Positions 31,076 through 58,721 of a stretch of DNA of 64,000 bases are shown piece by piece. The stretch spans positions 1,382,521-1,446,520 of the forward strand of contig NZ_CP082286.1 in the NCBI RefSeq assembly GCF_019880245.1. The letters are read 5' to 3'. The translations under genes were made by a program, and so were the position numbers. The notes beneath the pieces were generated by a model. It was given only the letters and a program-made list of their open reading frames with translations, did no database searches and was not told the DNA's origin. How positions within the stretch are numbered: the stretch's first letter is position 1; each line of letters opens with the position of its first letter. This DNA comes from Halobaculum roseum (GTDB taxonomy: Archaea; Halobacteriota; Halobacteria; Halobacteriales; Haloferacaceae).

Positions 31076-32299
31076 ATGAACGAGGACGACGGCGGGGGTG
31101 GCGACGGATCGTGGAGTAGACGAGGCGTCCTGACGGCGCTGGGGACCGGTGCCATCGCGGCGGCACTGGGCGAACCGACGGCGGCCGCGGCGTCCGATCC
31201 CGAGCCATCGTACGTCGTCGAGCAGGGGTCGACCTGCGTCCCGGTTCGTCCCGTTCAAGGGTCGGAAACCGCCGAGCAGTTCTACGAGTACCAGCTGCCG
31301 TCGCGATACGTCTCCGAGGAGAACGGCGCGGTCGTCGGCGACGAGGACCGATACAACTCGGCGGGAACGCGCGACCTCCAGCGCGCCGACACCAGCATCC
31401 TCTTGCTGTACGACGGCCCGGAGGGCGTGAGCCTGGTCGTCGTCCACGGCGGCCCGGACAGCCCCGACGGCGGGTCGGCGACGTTCACTTTCGACGGGCT
31501 CCCGACCGGCGGCGAGTGGGTCGTCGCCGACGACCTGTACGACGCCGACTCGAACTACGACCGGTGGAACGTCGACGGCGAGCCCCAGCGTATCGACTGG
31601 ACCTGGGCCGACGGCCGCACCGACGGCGGCGTCTTTCGCCCCCTCGGGGACGACCTCGACGCGACGATCGACCCCGCGTTCAACGAGGCCGCGGAACTGT
31701 TCGGCGTCTACTACGAAGGGCGCGTGACCGACTGGCAACTCCTCTCGGCGACCGACGACGGCGTCGAACGCGTGTCGCTGGCCCTCGACGAGCCGATCCG
31801 TGTGAGGGTCGGCACGTGCGGCTCCGACGGGACGGGCGGCGACGGGGACGACGATGATTCCGACGGCGATGAGGACACGCCGGACGACGACTCCGACGAT
31901 GACGAAGATCGCGAACGTGAGGACGGAGACGATGACGGCGATGACGACGAGGGCGACGAAGAGGAAGCGGACGACGACGAAGACCGCGAACGCGACAATG
32001 AGGACAGCGATGACGACGATGAGGATGAGGACGATGACGAGGACGAAGAGGCAGACGACGTTGGACCGCCGGACGATGCGGGACCACCCGACGACGCCGG
32101 TCCACCGGATGACGCGGGGCCGCCCGACGGAGCAGGACCACCCGAGGATGCCGGACCGCCCGACGGAGCAGGACCACCCGAGGATGCCGGACCGCCCGAG
32201 GATGCTGGACCACCCGACGACGCAGGTCCACCCAACGGCGGGGGACCGCCGGATGACGCCGGTCCCCCCGGTGACGACGATGACGAGGAGGACGACTGA
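31076..32299 (+). CDS. Tat-exported protein with acidic linker and GPP-repeat tail
   Basis: The 407-residue protein has a Tat signal (SRRGVLTALG from about residue 14, cleavage probably after ...PTAAAA near 39). Residues about 45-245 form a folded domain with a conserved-looking N-terminus (YVVEQGSTCVPVRPVQG) and paired blocks such as SLVVVHGGPDSPDGGSATFTFDG. Residues about 250-335 are almost all Asp/Glu with a few Arg. The last 75 residues are 12 GPP triplets, mostly in a six-residue unit DDAGPP or EDAGPP. There is no C-terminal anchor. The tail may be an extended spacer or salt-tolerant stalk. The folded domain is common in haloarchaeal exported proteins but its function is unknown. Confidence 0.75.
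   Translation: MNEDDGGGGDGSWSRRGVLTALGTGAIAAALGEPTAAAASDPEPSYVVEQGSTCVPVRPVQGSETAEQFYEYQLPSRYVSEENGAVVGDEDRYNSAGTRDLQRADTSILLLYDGPEGVSLVVVHGGPDSPDGGSATFTFDGLPTGGEWVVADDLYDADSNYDRWNVDGEPQRIDWTWADGRTDGGVFRPLGDDLDATIDPAFNEAAELFGVYYEGRVTDWQLLSATDDGVERVSLALDEPIRVRVGTCGSDGTGGDGDDDDSDGDEDTPDDDSDDDEDREREDGDDDGDDDEGDEEEADDDEDRERDNEDSDDDDEDEDDDEDEEADDVGPPDDAGPPDDAGPPDDAGPPDGAGPPEDAGPPDGAGPPEDAGPPEDAGPPDDAGPPNGGGPPDDAGPPGDDDDEEDD
32064..32270 (+). repeat. 18-base in-frame tandem repeats encoding DDAGPP units
   Basis: About 11 units of 18 bases encode the GPP-rich tail of the Tat-exported protein. Within them the 36-base block encoding DGAGPPEDAGPP occurs twice in near-identical form (around 32136-32207), evidence of a recent duplication. 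Unit length is a multiple of three, so copy-number change would alter tail length without a frameshift. Confidence 0.85.
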
Positions 32300-32322: not shown

Positions 32323-32350
32323 GAAATGCGGGAGAAGTGGGCCGGCGCGA
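32323..32350. repeat. Left attachment site (attL), 28-bp direct repeat
   Basis: GAAATGCGGGAGAAGTGGGC plus eight more bases (CGGCGCGA) is identical to 37157-37184. Five further bases just left (GAAAC) also match at the same distance with two mismatches between. Only 13 bases of the tRNA 3' end are present here, so this is the copy without a tRNA gene. Confidence 0.9.
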
Positions 32351-32618: not shown

Positions 32619-32939
32619 ATGCGATGGCACGGCGACTGGATGCAGGGACTCGATGAGCGCGTGCTGGAGCGACTCGCCGAGCAGGGAAACGCTCCCGCGA
32701 GGATGATCGCCTCGGATATCGACGAGCCGCGGCTTCGCGTCGCGCGGCTGTGTAAGGTGCTCGCGGAGGCTGAATTCATCGAACGTGAGGAGCGTGAGGG
32801 CTTCGCCGACGAGCGGTATATCACGAGTTGGGGGCTGCTGTATCTGGCAGGCGAGTTGAATGCAGAGCTGCGTCGCCCCGAGCCTGGGATGCGGCCGGGC
32901 GGTCGGATTCGGCCCGGGTGGTACACGGGCTTCAGCTAA
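32619..32939 (+). CDS. Winged-helix DNA-binding protein, phiH1-repressor-like
   Basis: The 106-residue protein has a winged-helix pattern: MRWHGDWMQGLDERVLERLAEQGNAPARMIA, then DEPRLRVARLCKVLAEAEFIERE and a wing-like DERYITSWGLLYLAGEL. This resembles small haloarchaeal and haloviral repressors. It begins 3 bases after the frameshifted relative at 32326-32615, with GGGGAGG about 15 bases before the ATG, and may now be the element's only working repressor. It has host-like high G+C. Its stop (32939) is one base from the stop of the convergent A+T-rich operon. Confidence 0.75.
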   Translation: MRWHGDWMQGLDERVLERLAEQGNAPARMIASDIDEPRLRVARLCKVLAEAEFIEREEREGFADERYITSWGLLYLAGELNAELRRPEPGMRPGGRIRPGWYTGFS

Positions 32940-32940
32940 A

Positions 32941-34089
32941 CTATTCTAGCGCTAATGTTGTTTCCCCAGAGAGGTACTCATCATACCGATTTAGGACCTG
33001 TTCACGGAATTCTTCTCTGATGTCACGACGCCTAGTGGCGCTGAAATCACTCTTGATCCAACCTGATTCTGATTGTAGCTTTGTCTCAGTAATACTCACC
33101 TCAAATGTGACTCTACGTGAGGTCTTGAAGTCAATCTCGACCACGACTCGTCTAGCAACGTCCTTGTGTTCGTACCGAACCTCTACCTGACTCAGATAGA
33201 AACCGTTCTTCTCGCATTTTTGAACAAATTCATTATTATCCAAATTATTCCCTGACAGCGCAGCGTTACGGATACCGTCCAACTCCGCATCTAGATCTTC
33301 ATCCTCTTCATCTTCGCCAACAGTTTCATCTCTCTGTACCTGGACCCCTTCCACGTTCTTACGGGTCCAATTTTCTGTCTCCATCGTCATCAAGTCGCGG
33401 ACGTATGCTACTCTGTTACGGATACCAAGCTCCGTGAGCGAGACAGGATCAGTGCTCACTGGCTCTTTACCAGCGGCTTCGCGTTGTTCATTCCAACCAT
33501 CAAGAAACTCAGTAATTGCAGTTTGCTGATTCACTTTATCATATTCATGAAGAACCGTAGATGTTCCATCCGAGTCGAAATTTTTCACCGTGAATTTTGT
33601 AGATTTTCTTCTACGTGCCAGTCCCTGGAGTTTGCCTCTTTTTTCAACTGTGAATTCCAAGTTGACCTCTAGATCGTCTCCATCCTCAGAAACATCTCTG
33701 ACGTGTACCTTCTTTTCACCATGAGCTGTTGCTTTGCGCTTCTGTTCTCTGAGGTCTGACAACACTTCCCGCTGAGATGACTCAGAATGCCATCTGAATG
33801 CGGACGACTTAGTGGTTGTATCCGATTCCAGTGCCTCTCTCTGGAAGAATTTGAAGCTATCATATCCATAGAATATTCTCCGTGATGCGTCAGCGATTGT
33901 AGATGTGCTATGATTGCACATCAACAAACCTGCTCTACGCTTGTGATGCTCGATGATTGCTTCTCGTGAGAGATAATCATCAATTATTTTCTCAAATTCT
34001 CTATCGGCTGGATACTGCAATTTCTCCATTTTGTCTTTTTTGTCCACGATAGCATCACTGTCGACTGTTGACTGTGAATTCTGACTCAT
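32941..34089 (-). CDS. Third gene of the A+T-rich cassette, unknown function
   Basis: The 382-residue protein is hydrophilic, without a signal or membrane helix. The N-terminal third (residues 1 to about 130) is helical and charged, with an REAIIEHHKRRAGLL segment and SRRIFYGYDSFKFFQREAL. A middle beta-rich part (about 130-190) contains EVNLEFTVEKRGKLQGLARRR and KFTVKNFDSDG. An acidic hinge (about 265-280, DEEDEDLD) precedes a second beta-rich part ending near VVVEIDFKTSRRVTFEVSITETK. I recognise no family. Its ATG overlaps the stop of the nuclease-like gene by one base (TAATG), so the two are coupled. Base and codon use are unlike the host, with many AT-ending codons: signs of transfer. Confidence 0.75.
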   Translation of the reverse strand: MSQNSQSTVDSDAIVDKKDKMEKLQYPADREFEKIIDDYLSREAIIEHHKRRAGLLMCNHSTSTIADASRRIFYGYDSFKFFQREALESDTTTKSSAFRWHSESSQREVLSDLREQKRKATAHGEKKVHVRDVSEDGDDLEVNLEFTVEKRGKLQGLARRRKSTKFTVKNFDSDGTSTVLHEYDKVNQQTAITEFLDGWNEQREAAGKEPVSTDPVSLTELGIRNRVAYVRDLMTMETENWTRKNVEGVQVQRDETVGEDEEDEDLDAELDGIRNAALSGNNLDNNEFVQKCEKNGFYLSQVEVRYEHKDVARRVVVEIDFKTSRRVTFEVSITETKLQSESGWIKSDFSATRRRDIREEFREQVLNRYDEYLSGETTLALE

Positions 34090-34985
34090 TATCGGTTGTC
34101 AAGGTGGTTCAAGTCTGCCATTGTCTGGAGCGTCTTGAATTCAATATCCGTATTTGCGTCTTCATCAGAGAACGTCCGAACAAATTCTTCTTCGACAGGT
34201 TCTGTGTGATGTCCACGGTCGGGGACGAAGATCTCGATCCTCTCGTGGTTCGACAGTAGCTGATAATGTCTTAATGATTTGTACATGAAGAGTAAGGAGT
34301 CAAAATCCATCTCACCAAAGTAGAATACAAAGCCAACATCCGAGCGTTCACCACTTGTGAGGAATATGAAATCAGATAGCAAATAGTCCATTGTCGCAAG
34401 ATCATACATACCTCCATCTGTGTCAGTCAAATCCGGGTAATAGAATTGTATATTGTCGTAATCCTTACTCAGTCTGTGGTATTGATCTTCTATACCAGCA
34501 ATTCGTTGTAATTGGTCATTCCCCCAAATAACGATCTTTGACAGATCCCAATTTTTCTTCACATCAAGTGATTGAACATACTGGTGGAACTCATCAGGTT
34601 CAAATCCATCAGTCGCCCAGAGAGCAACAATACCTGTATTAGTTATATCTGCTTCATTAGAGATATTGTGTGTTTCTTCGAAATACTCTGATTTGGGAGC
34701 TTTATCGACTTTTTCTAACAGAGTTTCAAAGAAACCTTCCACCTTCGATCTACTCACACTATCCCATTTCCACGACTTGGACTCGATTATGTTTCCGTGG
34801 ATATGTGGAGTGTAAGGATGTTTATATGTTAGATATGCGTCCAGGCCATACCCGTGCTTCCGGTCTTCGTCATCGACCTGAGCATCCACGTCAGTCTTGC
34901 TTTTTAGTGTCCATCCAAGTCCTTGGAATAGTTTGACTATTCTCTCAGTGGCTCGGTCACCCTTTCGGTTAGCATCTTCAGGCAT
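34089..34985 (-). CDS. PD-(D/E)xK nuclease-like protein, second gene of the A+T-rich cassette
   Basis: The 298-residue protein has the residue order of a PD-(D/E)xK nuclease core near its N-terminus: Glu14 in the first helix (RATERIVKLFQGLGW), Asp49 in GYGLDAYLTY, and Glu68-Ser-Lys70 in GNIIESKSW, followed by a helix (VSRSKVEGFFETLLEKV). This fold is used by restriction and many anti-phage nucleases. The rest (about 110-298) shows alternating strands and helices with no known motif (VALWATDGFEPDEF, KIVIWGNDQLQRI, FIFLTSGERSDVGFVFYFGE). It overlaps the upstream gene by 8 bases and the downstream gene by one. The ATG at 34985 is preferred to an in-frame earlier start (MIFFLRWL) that lies inside the upstream gene. 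Nuclease activity is inferred from motif spacing only. Confidence 0.7.
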   Translation of the reverse strand: MPEDANRKGDRATERIVKLFQGLGWTLKSKTDVDAQVDDEDRKHGYGLDAYLTYKHPYTPHIHGNIIESKSWKWDSVSRSKVEGFFETLLEKVDKAPKSEYFEETHNISNEADITNTGIVALWATDGFEPDEFHQYVQSLDVKKNWDLSKIVIWGNDQLQRIAGIEDQYHRLSKDYDNIQFYYPDLTDTDGGMYDLATMDYLLSDFIFLTSGERSDVGFVFYFGEMDFDSLLFMYKSLRHYQLLSNHERIEIFVPDRGHHTEPVEEEFVRTFSDEDANTDIEFKTLQTMADLNHLDNR

Positions 34986-35688
34986 CGGCAACCACCTCAG
35001 AAAGAAGATCACGAATCAGCGGTAGAAGTTCAGAGTCACGAGAGCTGTTGGAAAACAGTCTAACTGAGCCACTTCTGTAAATTCCTACTGTAACCTCTTC
35101 GTCAGGTGCCAAATTAATATTCAAACAGATATATGACACGTCTCCTTCGTATCTTGAGACCAGTTCCGATGCAACTTGATTGGTATAAGTTTCCAAATAG
35201 CAGTTGCCACTCGTTTGGGGCTCGGGTGAGATGTTGTTTATTCTGAGGGCACTCACATCGATCTCGTGGGGGGAGCGCCGTGATACCTCAAGTATTTGAT
35301 CAATATCGAGATTGAGGCTTTGGCTAACAAATTGAGGAACAACTTGGCCAAGTCGGTTTAGCAGCTCGCTATTCCCGTCTCGGTCTGTGTAACCCTCAAG
35401 AAATCCATTCTGTAAGTCAATTCGAAACGGAACTCGATCCGCGGTGGTTACGTTATCCTCTGTTGGCTCTCCAGTCTCAGGGTCTATTCTGGTTATTGAG
35501 GTATATGAATTCGATATGAGGACTCCCTCGACAGATCCCTCATTACGCCGAACTTGCCTGAATCCAAACGTCGAATTCTCAGAGTAGCTATTACTCCGAA
35601 GTTTGGATACTAAGGCTTCCTGTGGGGGGCATTCAATCCTACTCACGTTTATCGTGGCAGGTGTTTCAGCTATTTCTCCGTCAGGCAT
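34978..35688 (-). CDS. First gene of the A+T-rich cassette, unknown function
   Basis: The 236-residue protein (ATG 35688) looks soluble and beta-rich in its first half (ATINVSRIECPP, SVEGVLISNSYTSITRIDPETGEP, VPFRIDLQNGFLEGYTD) and helical in the middle (ELLNRLGQVVPQFVSQSLNLDIDQIL). The C-terminal third again alternates strands (DVSYICLNINLAPDEEVTVGIYRSGSVRLF) and ends with a helix. I recognise no family or catalytic motif. A TTG start at 35715 would add nine residues; ATG is preferred since TTG puts the start very close to the TATA element. It leads the cassette and overlaps the nuclease-like gene by 8 bases. Confidence 0.7.
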   Translation of the reverse strand: MPDGEIAETPATINVSRIECPPQEALVSKLRSNSYSENSTFGFRQVRRNEGSVEGVLISNSYTSITRIDPETGEPTEDNVTTADRVPFRIDLQNGFLEGYTDRDGNSELLNRLGQVVPQFVSQSLNLDIDQILEVSRRSPHEIDVSALRINNISPEPQTSGNCYLETYTNQVASELVSRYEGDVSYICLNINLAPDEEVTVGIYRSGSVRLFSNSSRDSELLPLIRDLLSEVVADA

Positions 35689-35726
35689 TGGATAGAAAAT
35701 AGAGCTACAATACAAGTATCTGTCGA

Positions 35727-35879: not shown

Positions 35880-36343
35880 TCACCACAATTCCTCTGCTTC
35901 CGCATCTAACTGCGTCCCGGCGTACTGCAAGTAGTCATTCGCACTCGACAGGTCCGCGTGCCCCATCGTCTGCCGGATATACTGCGGCGTCGCACCCCGT
36001 GCGGCAATGAGCGTCCCGTAGGTGTGACGGAGCACGTGTGGCGTGATCTTCTTCCGGAGGTCCGTCTCGGCCGCCACGCGCTTCACTCGATTCGTCACTG
36101 TCTGCCTTGTCGCCCCATACTCGGCGTGATACCCGAAGTAATCCCGGAGCCGCCGCAGTGTTCCGGGGTGCTTCACCGGGATCGTCCGCGCGGCGTGCTC
36201 GGTCTTCGACGTCCAGTCTCCCTCGACGGCCGGCACGCGCAGCAGCTCGTTCTGCCAGTCCATCCAGTCGTCGGTCATGTACGCTAGCTCGTCGGCACCG
36301 ATCCCGCTGTGTGCGAGCGTGTAGAGGTAGTTCAGTAGGGTTC
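35880..36343 (-). pseudogene. Tyrosine recombinase (integrase) remnant
   Basis: The C-terminal catalytic domain of a tyrosine recombinase is readable from about codon LNYLYTLAHSG (near 36340) to the stop at 35880. The box HVLRHTYGTLIA, MGHADLSS and the tyrosine in ANDYLQYAG are present. The first catalytic Arg, expected in a TGLRADEL-type motif, is replaced: the sequence is SGIGADELAYM. The N-terminal core-binding domain is missing, and recognisable homology starts right where the vapC stop codon lies, so vapBC replaced the 5' part. The only ATG start (36278) gives 132 residues. It cannot be expected to recombine. Confidence 0.8.
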
Positions 36344-36718
36344 GACGGGCACGCCGTGGCGTTCGAAGTCGTCGACGTTCCGCGTAACGACCGCCTCGCC
36401 TTCCACGTCGGCGGTTGCCGCGATCACCGCGTCACCCTTCTTGCGCTTGTACGTCGAGGGGTCCAGGCGGCCGATCATCCGCCCCGCTTCCTCGGCGATC
36501 TGCGGGTCCATCGCTACCCGTGGGACGCCGTCCAGAATTCGACGTATCTCGCGCGCTTCCTCTTCTCCGGTGTACGCTTCGATGCCGATGTACAGCTCCA
36601 GCACCGTCATCGTGGAGAGCTTCAACACGGCACCGTTCGCCTCCAACTCGTCCAGTTTCTCGTGTGCCGCCGGGAGATCGGCCATCAGGTCGAGCACGAA
36701 CGCGGTATCGAGGATCAT
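36332..36718 (-). CDS. vapC: VapC toxin, PIN-domain ribonuclease
   Basis: The 128-residue PIN-domain protein keeps the acidic active-site set: Asp4 (MILDTAFVLD), Glu41 (TMTVLELYIG), Asp near 95 (KKGDAVIAATA) and Asp near 115 (TRNVDDFERHG). It should cut a structured RNA, usually tRNA or rRNA, when freed from VapB. Its start overlaps the vapB stop by 4 bases, standard for the pair. The 3' end abuts the integrase remnant directly. It may stabilise the element or be an independent acquisition. Confidence 0.92.
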   Translation of the reverse strand: MILDTAFVLDLMADLPAAHEKLDELEANGAVLKLSTMTVLELYIGIEAYTGEEEAREIRRILDGVPRVAMDPQIAEEAGRMIGRLDPSTYKRKKGDAVIAATADVEGEAVVTRNVDDFERHGVPVEPY

Positions 36719-36948
36719 TCGAAGCGCTCGGCGATTTCTTCGACCTCCTCGGCGTCGTCGTCCTCGGCCGCCTCGATGGTCTCGCGCATCGTCTCGACCG
36801 TCTCGCTATCGAGGATTCCCCCGAGGTCCCGCAGCGACGGCCCGCCGATCAGGCGCTCGATAGCCTCCGAAAAGGTTTCGTCGTCCCGTTTGTGGGCCTT
36901 GATCCGGTTGTACACGTCCTCATCCAGCCGAACTGGTTTCGTACTCAT
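36715..36948 (-). CDS. vapB: VapB antitoxin
   Basis: The 77-residue antitoxin has an N-terminal ribbon-helix-helix part, KPVRLDEDVYNRIKAHKRDDETFSEAIERL, and a C-terminal acidic tail that would wrap VapC (ETVETMRETIEAAEDDDAEEVEEIAERFE). The protein pairs with the following vapC by a 4-base overlap. A perfect palindrome sits two bases before its ATG and probably is its own operator. Closely similar in layout to the second pair at 58718-58951. Confidence 0.92.
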   Translation of the reverse strand: MSTKPVRLDEDVYNRIKAHKRDDETFSEAIERLIGGPSLRDLGGILDSETVETMRETIEAAEDDDAEEVEEIAERFE

Positions 36949-37156: not shown

Positions 37157-37184
37157 GAAATGCGGGAGAAGTGGGCCGGCGCGA
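37157..37184. repeat. Right attachment site (attR), 28-bp direct repeat
   Basis: The sequence is identical to 32323-32350. The last 13 bases (37172-37184) are the 3' end of the tRNA-Pro gene, i.e. its acceptor strand and part of the T stem. This is the copy attached to the intact tRNA gene, so the left junction lacks one. Confidence 0.9.
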
Positions 37185-37244
37185 ATTTGAATCGCGGTTA
37201 CGGCCACCCGAAGGCCGAAGGATACCAAGCTACCCCACCGGCCC
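37172..37244 (-). tRNA. tRNA-Pro (anticodon CGG)
   Basis: Reading the minus strand, 73 bases fold into a cloverleaf. The acceptor is GGGCCGG paired with CCGGCCC plus discriminator A. The D-arm is GGGT...ATCC with a GGT in the loop. The anticodon stem CGGCC/GGCCG has loop TTCGGGT, anticodon CGG. The T-arm is CGCGA/TCGCG with loop TTCAAAT. CCA is not encoded. The 3' end carries the attachment core of the integrated element. Confidence 0.93.
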
Positions 37245-58328: not shown

Positions 58329-58721
58329 TCAGTACGTTTCTGCATCGAGATTCGGAATTCGCTCGAAATGGGATACGTTTCGGGTCAGAACCGGCTCGTT
58401 CTCTCGGATCGCGGTCGCCGCGATGATGCAGTCCTCCCGATCTATCTGGTCGCCGTTAGCGATGAGCGTACCGCCCAGTTCCCCAGCCCGCTTCATCACG
58501 CCGTGGTCGGCCGGGATCACGTGTTTGGAATCGAGCACGCGAAGCACCTCCCGTTTTTCGTCCTCGGGTCTGTCGGAACGGTGGATCCCTTCGTACAGTT
58601 CCAGCGAAGTGATCGAGGCGATCTTCTCGGGGCGGTTCTCCCGTTCGAGGAGATCGAGGGCATCCAGCGCGTCAGTATCCCCGTTCAGTACGTCGATCAG
58701 AAAGCTCGTGTCCTGAATCAT
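58329..58721 (-). CDS. vapC: VapC toxin, PIN-domain ribonuclease (second pair)
   Basis: The 130-residue PIN-domain protein keeps Asp4 (MIQDTSFLIDVL), Glu41 (SITSLELYEG), Asp near 98 in REDCIIAATA and Asn/His in TRNVSHFERI where other PINs have Asp. It pairs with vapB through a 4-base overlap. It is only about 35% like the first VapC by eye. It is not on a recognisable element; flanks are ordinary host genes (rnhB and a membrane protein). Confidence 0.92.
   Translation of the reverse strand: MIQDTSFLIDVLNGDTDALDALDLLERENRPEKIASITSLELYEGIHRSDRPEDEKREVLRVLDSKHVIPADHGVMKRAGELGGTLIANGDQIDREDCIIAATAIRENEPVLTRNVSHFERIPNLDAETY

Follow-up and report, generated by a model that had tools for sequence, protein, structure and literature searches.

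A salt-loving archaeon carries at a tRNA-Pro gene an element of 4834 bp from repeat to repeat (~4.8 kb), in which an intact vapBC pair is followed by the 5'-truncated remnant of a tyrosine recombinase gene. We consider it probable that this element once had the order vapBC, palindrome, recombinase, and that a small deletion then left a dead recombinase beside a retained vapBC. The ancestral 4.8-kb element would have held vapBC, a palindromic site and a gene for a 178-aa recombinase, reading away from tRNA-Pro. The deletion would have run from 6-8 bp past the vapC stop codon to recombinase codon 31, with a 3-bp overlap at the join, so that the first 30 codons would have been lost together with the promoter region and the palindrome. 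A further lesion turned the first catalytic Arg into Gly, the order of the two being one that we infer; the recombinase would be dead, and vapBC would have been kept under purifying selection, presumably as an addiction module.

The tRNA-Pro element and its genes

Positions are those of the window, by which we mean the whole stretch of 64,000 nucleotides that was analysed. The integration target is a tRNA-Pro(CGG) gene (37171-37244, minus strand), in agreement with the tRNA-Pro site supposed in an earlier note on this DNA, and att repeats bound the element. The tRNA-proximal copy (37157-37184) takes in the last 14 nt of tRNA-Pro, and the distal copy (32323-32350) repeats the tRNA 3' end and its flank exactly over 28 bp, or over 35 bp at 94%. 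In genome G014, which is 95-97% identical here, the flanks join at a single att copy, that is, at an empty site. Direct att repeats at the 3' end of a tRNA and an empty site, by which tRNA-integrated elements are recognised, were both found.

The tRNA-Pro flank is present in 11/11 genus genomes searched. Judging by BLAST coordinates, the site is occupied in the window, G019 and G010, whereas less than 0.5 kb separates the last flank match from the tRNA in G011, G013, G014, G015, G017 and G018, so these six genomes should have no sizeable element; the gaps in G012 and G016 are about 0.9 and 1.9 kb. A distal att copy was searched for in the G019 island and not found. Separately, G016 shows a tandem partial duplication at tRNA-Pro (L093 2085-2283; 69 bp exact, 130 bp apart), and the host gene beside the window element (31076-32299) ends in 18-bp repeats of the GPPDDA type, of which G014 has fewer by eye.

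The two genes nearest to tRNA-Pro are both intact and overlap by 4 bp, namely vapB (36715-36948, minus strand; PF02697 VAPB_antitox, E=3e-11) and vapC (36332-36718, minus strand; PF01850 PIN, E=8e-14). A PIN toxin and an antitoxin encoded by overlapping genes are what a VapBC type II toxin-antitoxin system (PIN / VAPB_antitox) comprises, and nothing unusual was found in the window pair apart from its neighbour. Relatives of vapC are 91% and 88% identical; dN/dS against two relatives is 0.10-0.14 for vapB and, against the same two, 0.11-0.15 for vapC. As judged from sequence, vapBC is under purifying selection, and it should be a candidate addiction module that is still acting. Elsewhere in the window (58359-58721, minus strand) a second VapC-like protein is encoded, 39% identical to the first over 120 residues.

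The middle of the element is a three-gene operon (32941-35715, minus strand; 38-48% G+C) of cargo genes with no identified function: A (34978-35715, 245 aa), B (34089-35012, 295-307 aa by start codon) and C (32941-34089, 382 aa). Pfam, NCBIfam and PADLOC gave no identification for the cargo proteins of the window, where one weak PADLOC match was seen (E=0.018), and no relatives of gene C were found in viral contigs. Gene C has relatives in 7/391 other genomes searched, accompanied by gene B at 7/7 and by gene A at 6/7 of these loci; a scan of one relative showed an HhH (helix-hairpin-helix) domain at its C-terminus, and compared with it the window copy is shorter. We regard the A-B-C operon as a candidate defence or plasmid cassette.

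At the distal end lies a small plus-strand gene (32619-32939) whose winged-helix match (TrmB, E=7e-4) is weak and does not reach the Pfam cut-off; the G019 island has similar DNA (73%) at its corresponding end. In place of A-B-C, that island (L086 10333-12257) encodes an AriA-like (PARIS-type) ATPase, called by PADLOC at E=6e-30 among many related ATPase models matched, together with a partner of 199 aa that has no match. The window element thus resembles tRNA-integrated islands with interchangeable cargo, both in its att at the tRNA 3' end with an empty site in a sister genome, and in the different cargo that the window and G019 hold between similar ends; it differs from them in that no working integrase was found in it.

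The recombinase remnant and its short relatives

Reading away from tRNA-Pro on the minus strand, vapB and vapC are followed by an integrase frame that begins LYTLAHSGIGADEL, just past the vapC stop, and ends at its own stop codon (35880-35882). This remnant (35880-36326) corresponds to codons 31-178 plus the stop of a 178-aa tyrosine recombinase, matches PF00589 (Phage_integrase) with E=6e-13 over profile positions 35-167 of 172, and runs through 148 codons without stop or frameshift. Its identity to six full-length copies, from five genomes of the same genus, is 82-87%, a sequence likeness that is beyond chance. The head of the frame has no start codon, the first ATG being codon 47 (at 36278), and codons 1-30 of 178 are absent together with the upstream region. 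At codon 40 (36297-36299, minus strand), alignment with intact copies places GGT, encoding Gly, where the TGLR motif has its Arg. The window copy therefore lacks the first catalytic Arg of tyrosine recombinases, just as the earlier note had read from the sequence. Since it is both 5'-truncated and without this residue, the window recombinase should be dead.

That same note took the N-terminal domain to be gone, which the intact relatives contradict. Six intact copies are found in five genus genomes (G010, G011, G014, G015 twice, and G016) and a further six in other genera, all of 178 aa and without stops, with MAWTREPL or a similar sequence at the N-terminus; a copy on a Halobaculum marinum plasmid is likewise annotated with 178 aa in its record. 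In the one full copy scanned, PF00589 matches from position 3 to 167 and only 7 residues precede the match. By sequence and structural model, this recombinase family is naturally short, consisting of a catalytic domain without any N-terminal domain in front of it, and the headless look of the remnant, easily misread, can stem from this. A match at E<=1e-25 occurs in 12/392 genomes of the order. Ten of the 12 have a full-length 178-aa copy without stops, and the other two, the window's own genome and G061, have degenerate copies only. Intact short recombinases, which the earlier note had considered as a possible refutation if they were widespread and carried Gly, do exist in these ten genomes, but the Gly is confined to the window, Arg40 being kept in 12/12 intact copies compared.

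Across 13 intact copies, R40, K71, H127, R130, H153 and Y162 are invariant, giving the RKHRH-type pentad and Tyr nucleophile, with catalytic columns assigned by motif. Passages of PMC8138268 name this catalytic pentad of tyrosine recombinases, and describe the simple ones as a core-binding plus a catalytic domain. The short family departs from that architecture, given its PF00589 match from position 3 and its catalytic-fold model. Indeed, the best predicted structure shows nothing but the catalytic fold; of five models a single one was confident (89 vs 43-47), and the fold call rests mainly on the sequence match and Foldseek. Among solved structures, XerA (5hxy) comes closest both in sequence and in fold (Foldseek). 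The first three helices are predicted at H10-21, H25-37 and H41-45, and the residues missing from the window copy would amount to helix 1 and half of helix 2. According to passages of Badel et al. 2021 (PMC8371274), archaeal tyrosine recombinase families with PF00589 only include HSTV2-like, fam30-07, fam30-17 and fam30-28. The intact relatives, likened by description, fit these single-domain families in having the Phage_integrase domain only, and the window copy differs in being broken.

Four distant relatives (25-28%) were found in viral contigs, and when seven genes neighbouring intact copies were compared with PHROG, the outcome was one family without a known function and a single marginal match. 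In two genomes, large genes that look surface-glycoprotein-like by eye (L037 5340-8099; L039 3576-6671) adjoin an intact recombinase, and on plasmid PL47 (L108) an annotated cell surface glycoprotein gene lies about 5 kb from the recombinase copy.

Compared with its nearest relative, the window integrase has a dN of 0.073 and a dS of 0.762, a ratio of 0.10 that resembles intact pairs of similar distance. It departs from otherwise invariant sites at three positions (T37S, R40G and P70S), no excess in number given the 0-4 such departures of intact copies. The low dN/dS, the lack of any stop or frameshift and the few departures indicate that most of this divergence predates the loss, and that the death of the gene is recent. 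An open frame with low dN/dS could also belong to a working minimal recombinase, or a regulator, started from the internal ATG (codon 47, 132 aa). We find this highly unlikely, as such a start drops the catalytic Arg region and, in the model, the first three predicted helices, and a low dN/dS can be mostly pre-loss history.

Gene order and the origin of the junction

Upstream of the intact copies lies a palindrome of the TTTTACAG-N10-CTGTAAAA type. The pattern ACAG-N10/11-CTGT, with 9-bp arms, stands before 13/13 intact genes scanned and also before a 14th (L168), and its outer edge is 97-134 bp from the ATG in 13/13 intact copies measured. Subgroup differences in the outer arm bases change together on both sides, as seen by eye. 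This palindrome is putatively the recombinase's site, or it may be regulatory, as an operator of the recombinase gene. In the window, a looser search gave five matches, one of them inside the element at 34190, which is the level of shuffled sequence (2-6 matches per 64 kb window in mononucleotide shuffles).

Another replicon of G014 carries the same vapBC (vapBC1), 88% identical in DNA to that of the window, with TTTTACAGAGATACAACTCTGGAAAA 35 bp after vapC. This stretch agrees at 24/26 positions with the palindrome that precedes the L129 gene, an intact copy, compared with a best of 15/26 in five shuffles of the 18-kb G014 locus; no integrase piece follows the palindrome on this replicon. At the same tRNA-Pro as in the window, G010 has a different pair (vapBC2), then the palindrome, and then the first 28 recombinase codons, cut off at a host gene. 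In G019, vapBC1 and vapBC2 stand in tandem at tRNA-Pro, and neither palindrome nor recombinase of the short family was found in the island. The row of vapBC1, palindrome and intact integrase was found in no genome seen. Since vapBC adjoins the palindrome in G014 and G010, and integrase codons follow in G010, the ancestral order was probably tRNA, vapBC, palindrome, recombinase, as a composite of G014, G010 and the window.

The earlier note described the vapC stop codon as fused to an integrase fragment. VapC is indeed intact and the fragment real, but the join lies 6-8 bp past the stop. Homology to the vapC flank of G019 reaches 36317 by BLAST and 36323 by eye, and integrase homology starts at 36325 in all six intact genus copies (L036-L041). 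In a base-by-base comparison by eye, 3 bp (TCT; 36323-36325, minus strand) belong both to the vapC flank and to integrase codons 31-32, and mark the inferred deletion breakpoint. Because the two homologies overlap in this way, the junction suggests a deletion between neighbours, a 3-bp overlap being weak evidence when taken alone.

The alternative put forward in the earlier note, that vapBC entered the integrase gene by insertion or recombination and took the place of its 5' half as an adaptive lock, draws on the state of vapBC, which is intact and constrained and lies directly beside the remnant, and on its mobility, as it occurs at tRNA-Pro in two species and on the other replicon in G014. 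We nevertheless judge it unlikely. Far from half of the gene, only codons 1-30 of 178 are missing, and some vapC flank survives beyond the stop, which a deletion joining two adjacent genes would be expected to leave. The gene order elsewhere fits a deletion as well, with vapBC already tRNA-proximal without integrase in G019, and with the palindrome next to vapBC in G014 and next to vapBC2 in G010. The proximity of a C-terminal piece to a tRNA also recalls the suicide integrases of the SSV type, in which integration splits the gene at att into N and C pieces, and N-terminal pieces of the family do occur elsewhere, at the tRNA-Pro of G010 and, as some six codons read by eye, at C1:2945454 of the window's own genome. 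However, 832 bp, including vapBC, separate the break from the att copy, and searches with the first 36 residues of 13 intact copies recovered no N-terminal piece from the element (best E 0.014, in scattered short stretches). We thus rejected a split integrase, which has almost no probability left.

A further possibility, compatible with the deletion and towards which we lean slightly, is that the integrase was a passenger, and that another recombinase, acting in trans or since lost, made the 28-bp att insertion. The best match to the palindrome within the element is 16/26, none occurs in the window with up to 3 mismatches, and the tRNA-Pro att does not resemble it. The G019 island has no integrase of the short family, 0/14 intact copies lie within 2.4 kb downstream of a tRNA, and the window's own genome has seven other loci above the PF00589 cut-off, with open frames of 273-447 codons. 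That the remnant integrase made the tRNA-Pro insertion is unproven, as is the idea that its loss locks the element in place, given the dissimilar att and these seven loci. Pointing the other way, both tRNA-Pro islands with integrase pieces keep the order tRNA, vapBC, integrase, and 6/15 degenerate copies are found on the strand of a tRNA, 0.03-2.4 kb downstream of it (one-sided Fisher 0.011 for 6/15 against 0/14, or 0.020 without the window). The 15 degenerate copies include eight weak ones, all without a tRNA, and the count excludes more distant partial matches, assigned by judgement to other recombinase families. This association may reflect either tRNA targeting or decay inside islands.

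No exact downstream repeat of at least 13 bp was found at the tRNA-linked loci L043, L045, L006, L095 and L086. The window's own genome holds three further family remnants (L160 7454; L043 6450-6733; L042 6728-7002), two of them downstream of tRNA-Val(GAC) and tRNA-Thr(TGT); the L160 copy did not come from a search but was recognised by eye, from the palindrome and some six codons. In L135 (1984-2506), a C-terminal recombinase remnant follows tRNA-Val(CAC) after 30-45 bp.

The palindrome as a possible docking site

Five intact copies are syntenic, and what lies beyond the outer edge of their palindrome varies. An 88-aa gene follows directly in G014 and G016, and an insert of 0.96-1.5 kb precedes this gene in G010, G011 and G015. 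In G095 (L168 2667-7100), an intact and a truncated recombinase copy each have two palindromes before the start codon, and the outer ones form a direct repeat with a spacing of 3.75 kb and agree at 28 of 29 positions, as an insertion at the palindrome would leave them. In L040 (8138-8503), two palindromes with different spacers stand 340 bp apart upstream of one recombinase gene.

On the basis of the inserts in 3/5 syntenic copies, the vapBC beside the palindrome in G014 and G010, and the palindrome repeat in G095, it is tempting to speculate, although we hold it to be doubtful, that haloarchaea possess a compact module of a 178-aa, catalytic-domain-only recombinase and a palindromic dock ~100 bp upstream, with small cargo inserted time and again at the outer edge of the dock. 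The cargo of this tentative module would be toxin-antitoxin pairs and single unknown genes, and the whole might form a minimal platform akin to integrons or dif modules, though separate from the IntI integrons. A simple docking model is opposed by the three inserts (G010, G011 and G015), at whose far end no second palindrome was seen, and by spacers that differ between insert-bearing and insert-free syntenic copies.

As for known systems, the short family resembles XerA/dif and XerH/difH in having XerA 5hxy as its closest solved relative and a palindromic site with a short spacer, but it has no core-binding domain and its site lies beside the recombinase gene. The dif site is given as 11-6-11 in a passage of PMC8371274, against arms of 9 and a spacer of 10-11 in the short family by our own reading. 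Archaeal integrons are described with a canonical IntI in a passage of PMC9668308, and the NCBIfam integron model scores the window fragment at 31 bits, with a cut-off of 265. In the titles and opening lines of abstracts among the matches listed for archaeal and haloarchaeal recombinases, vapBC and integrons, which lie mostly outside subscription journals, neither the vapC-integrase junction nor the palindrome-linked short family was named.

Decay of the integrase with retention of the addiction module is a common fate of integrated elements. The deletion scar itself appears ordinary; it is the short family and its palindromic sites that merit a closer look. If recombinase and palindrome do form a cargo dock, they would be among the smallest archaeal site-specific recombination systems, and could explain the turnover of toxin-antitoxin and defence genes in haloarchaeal islands.
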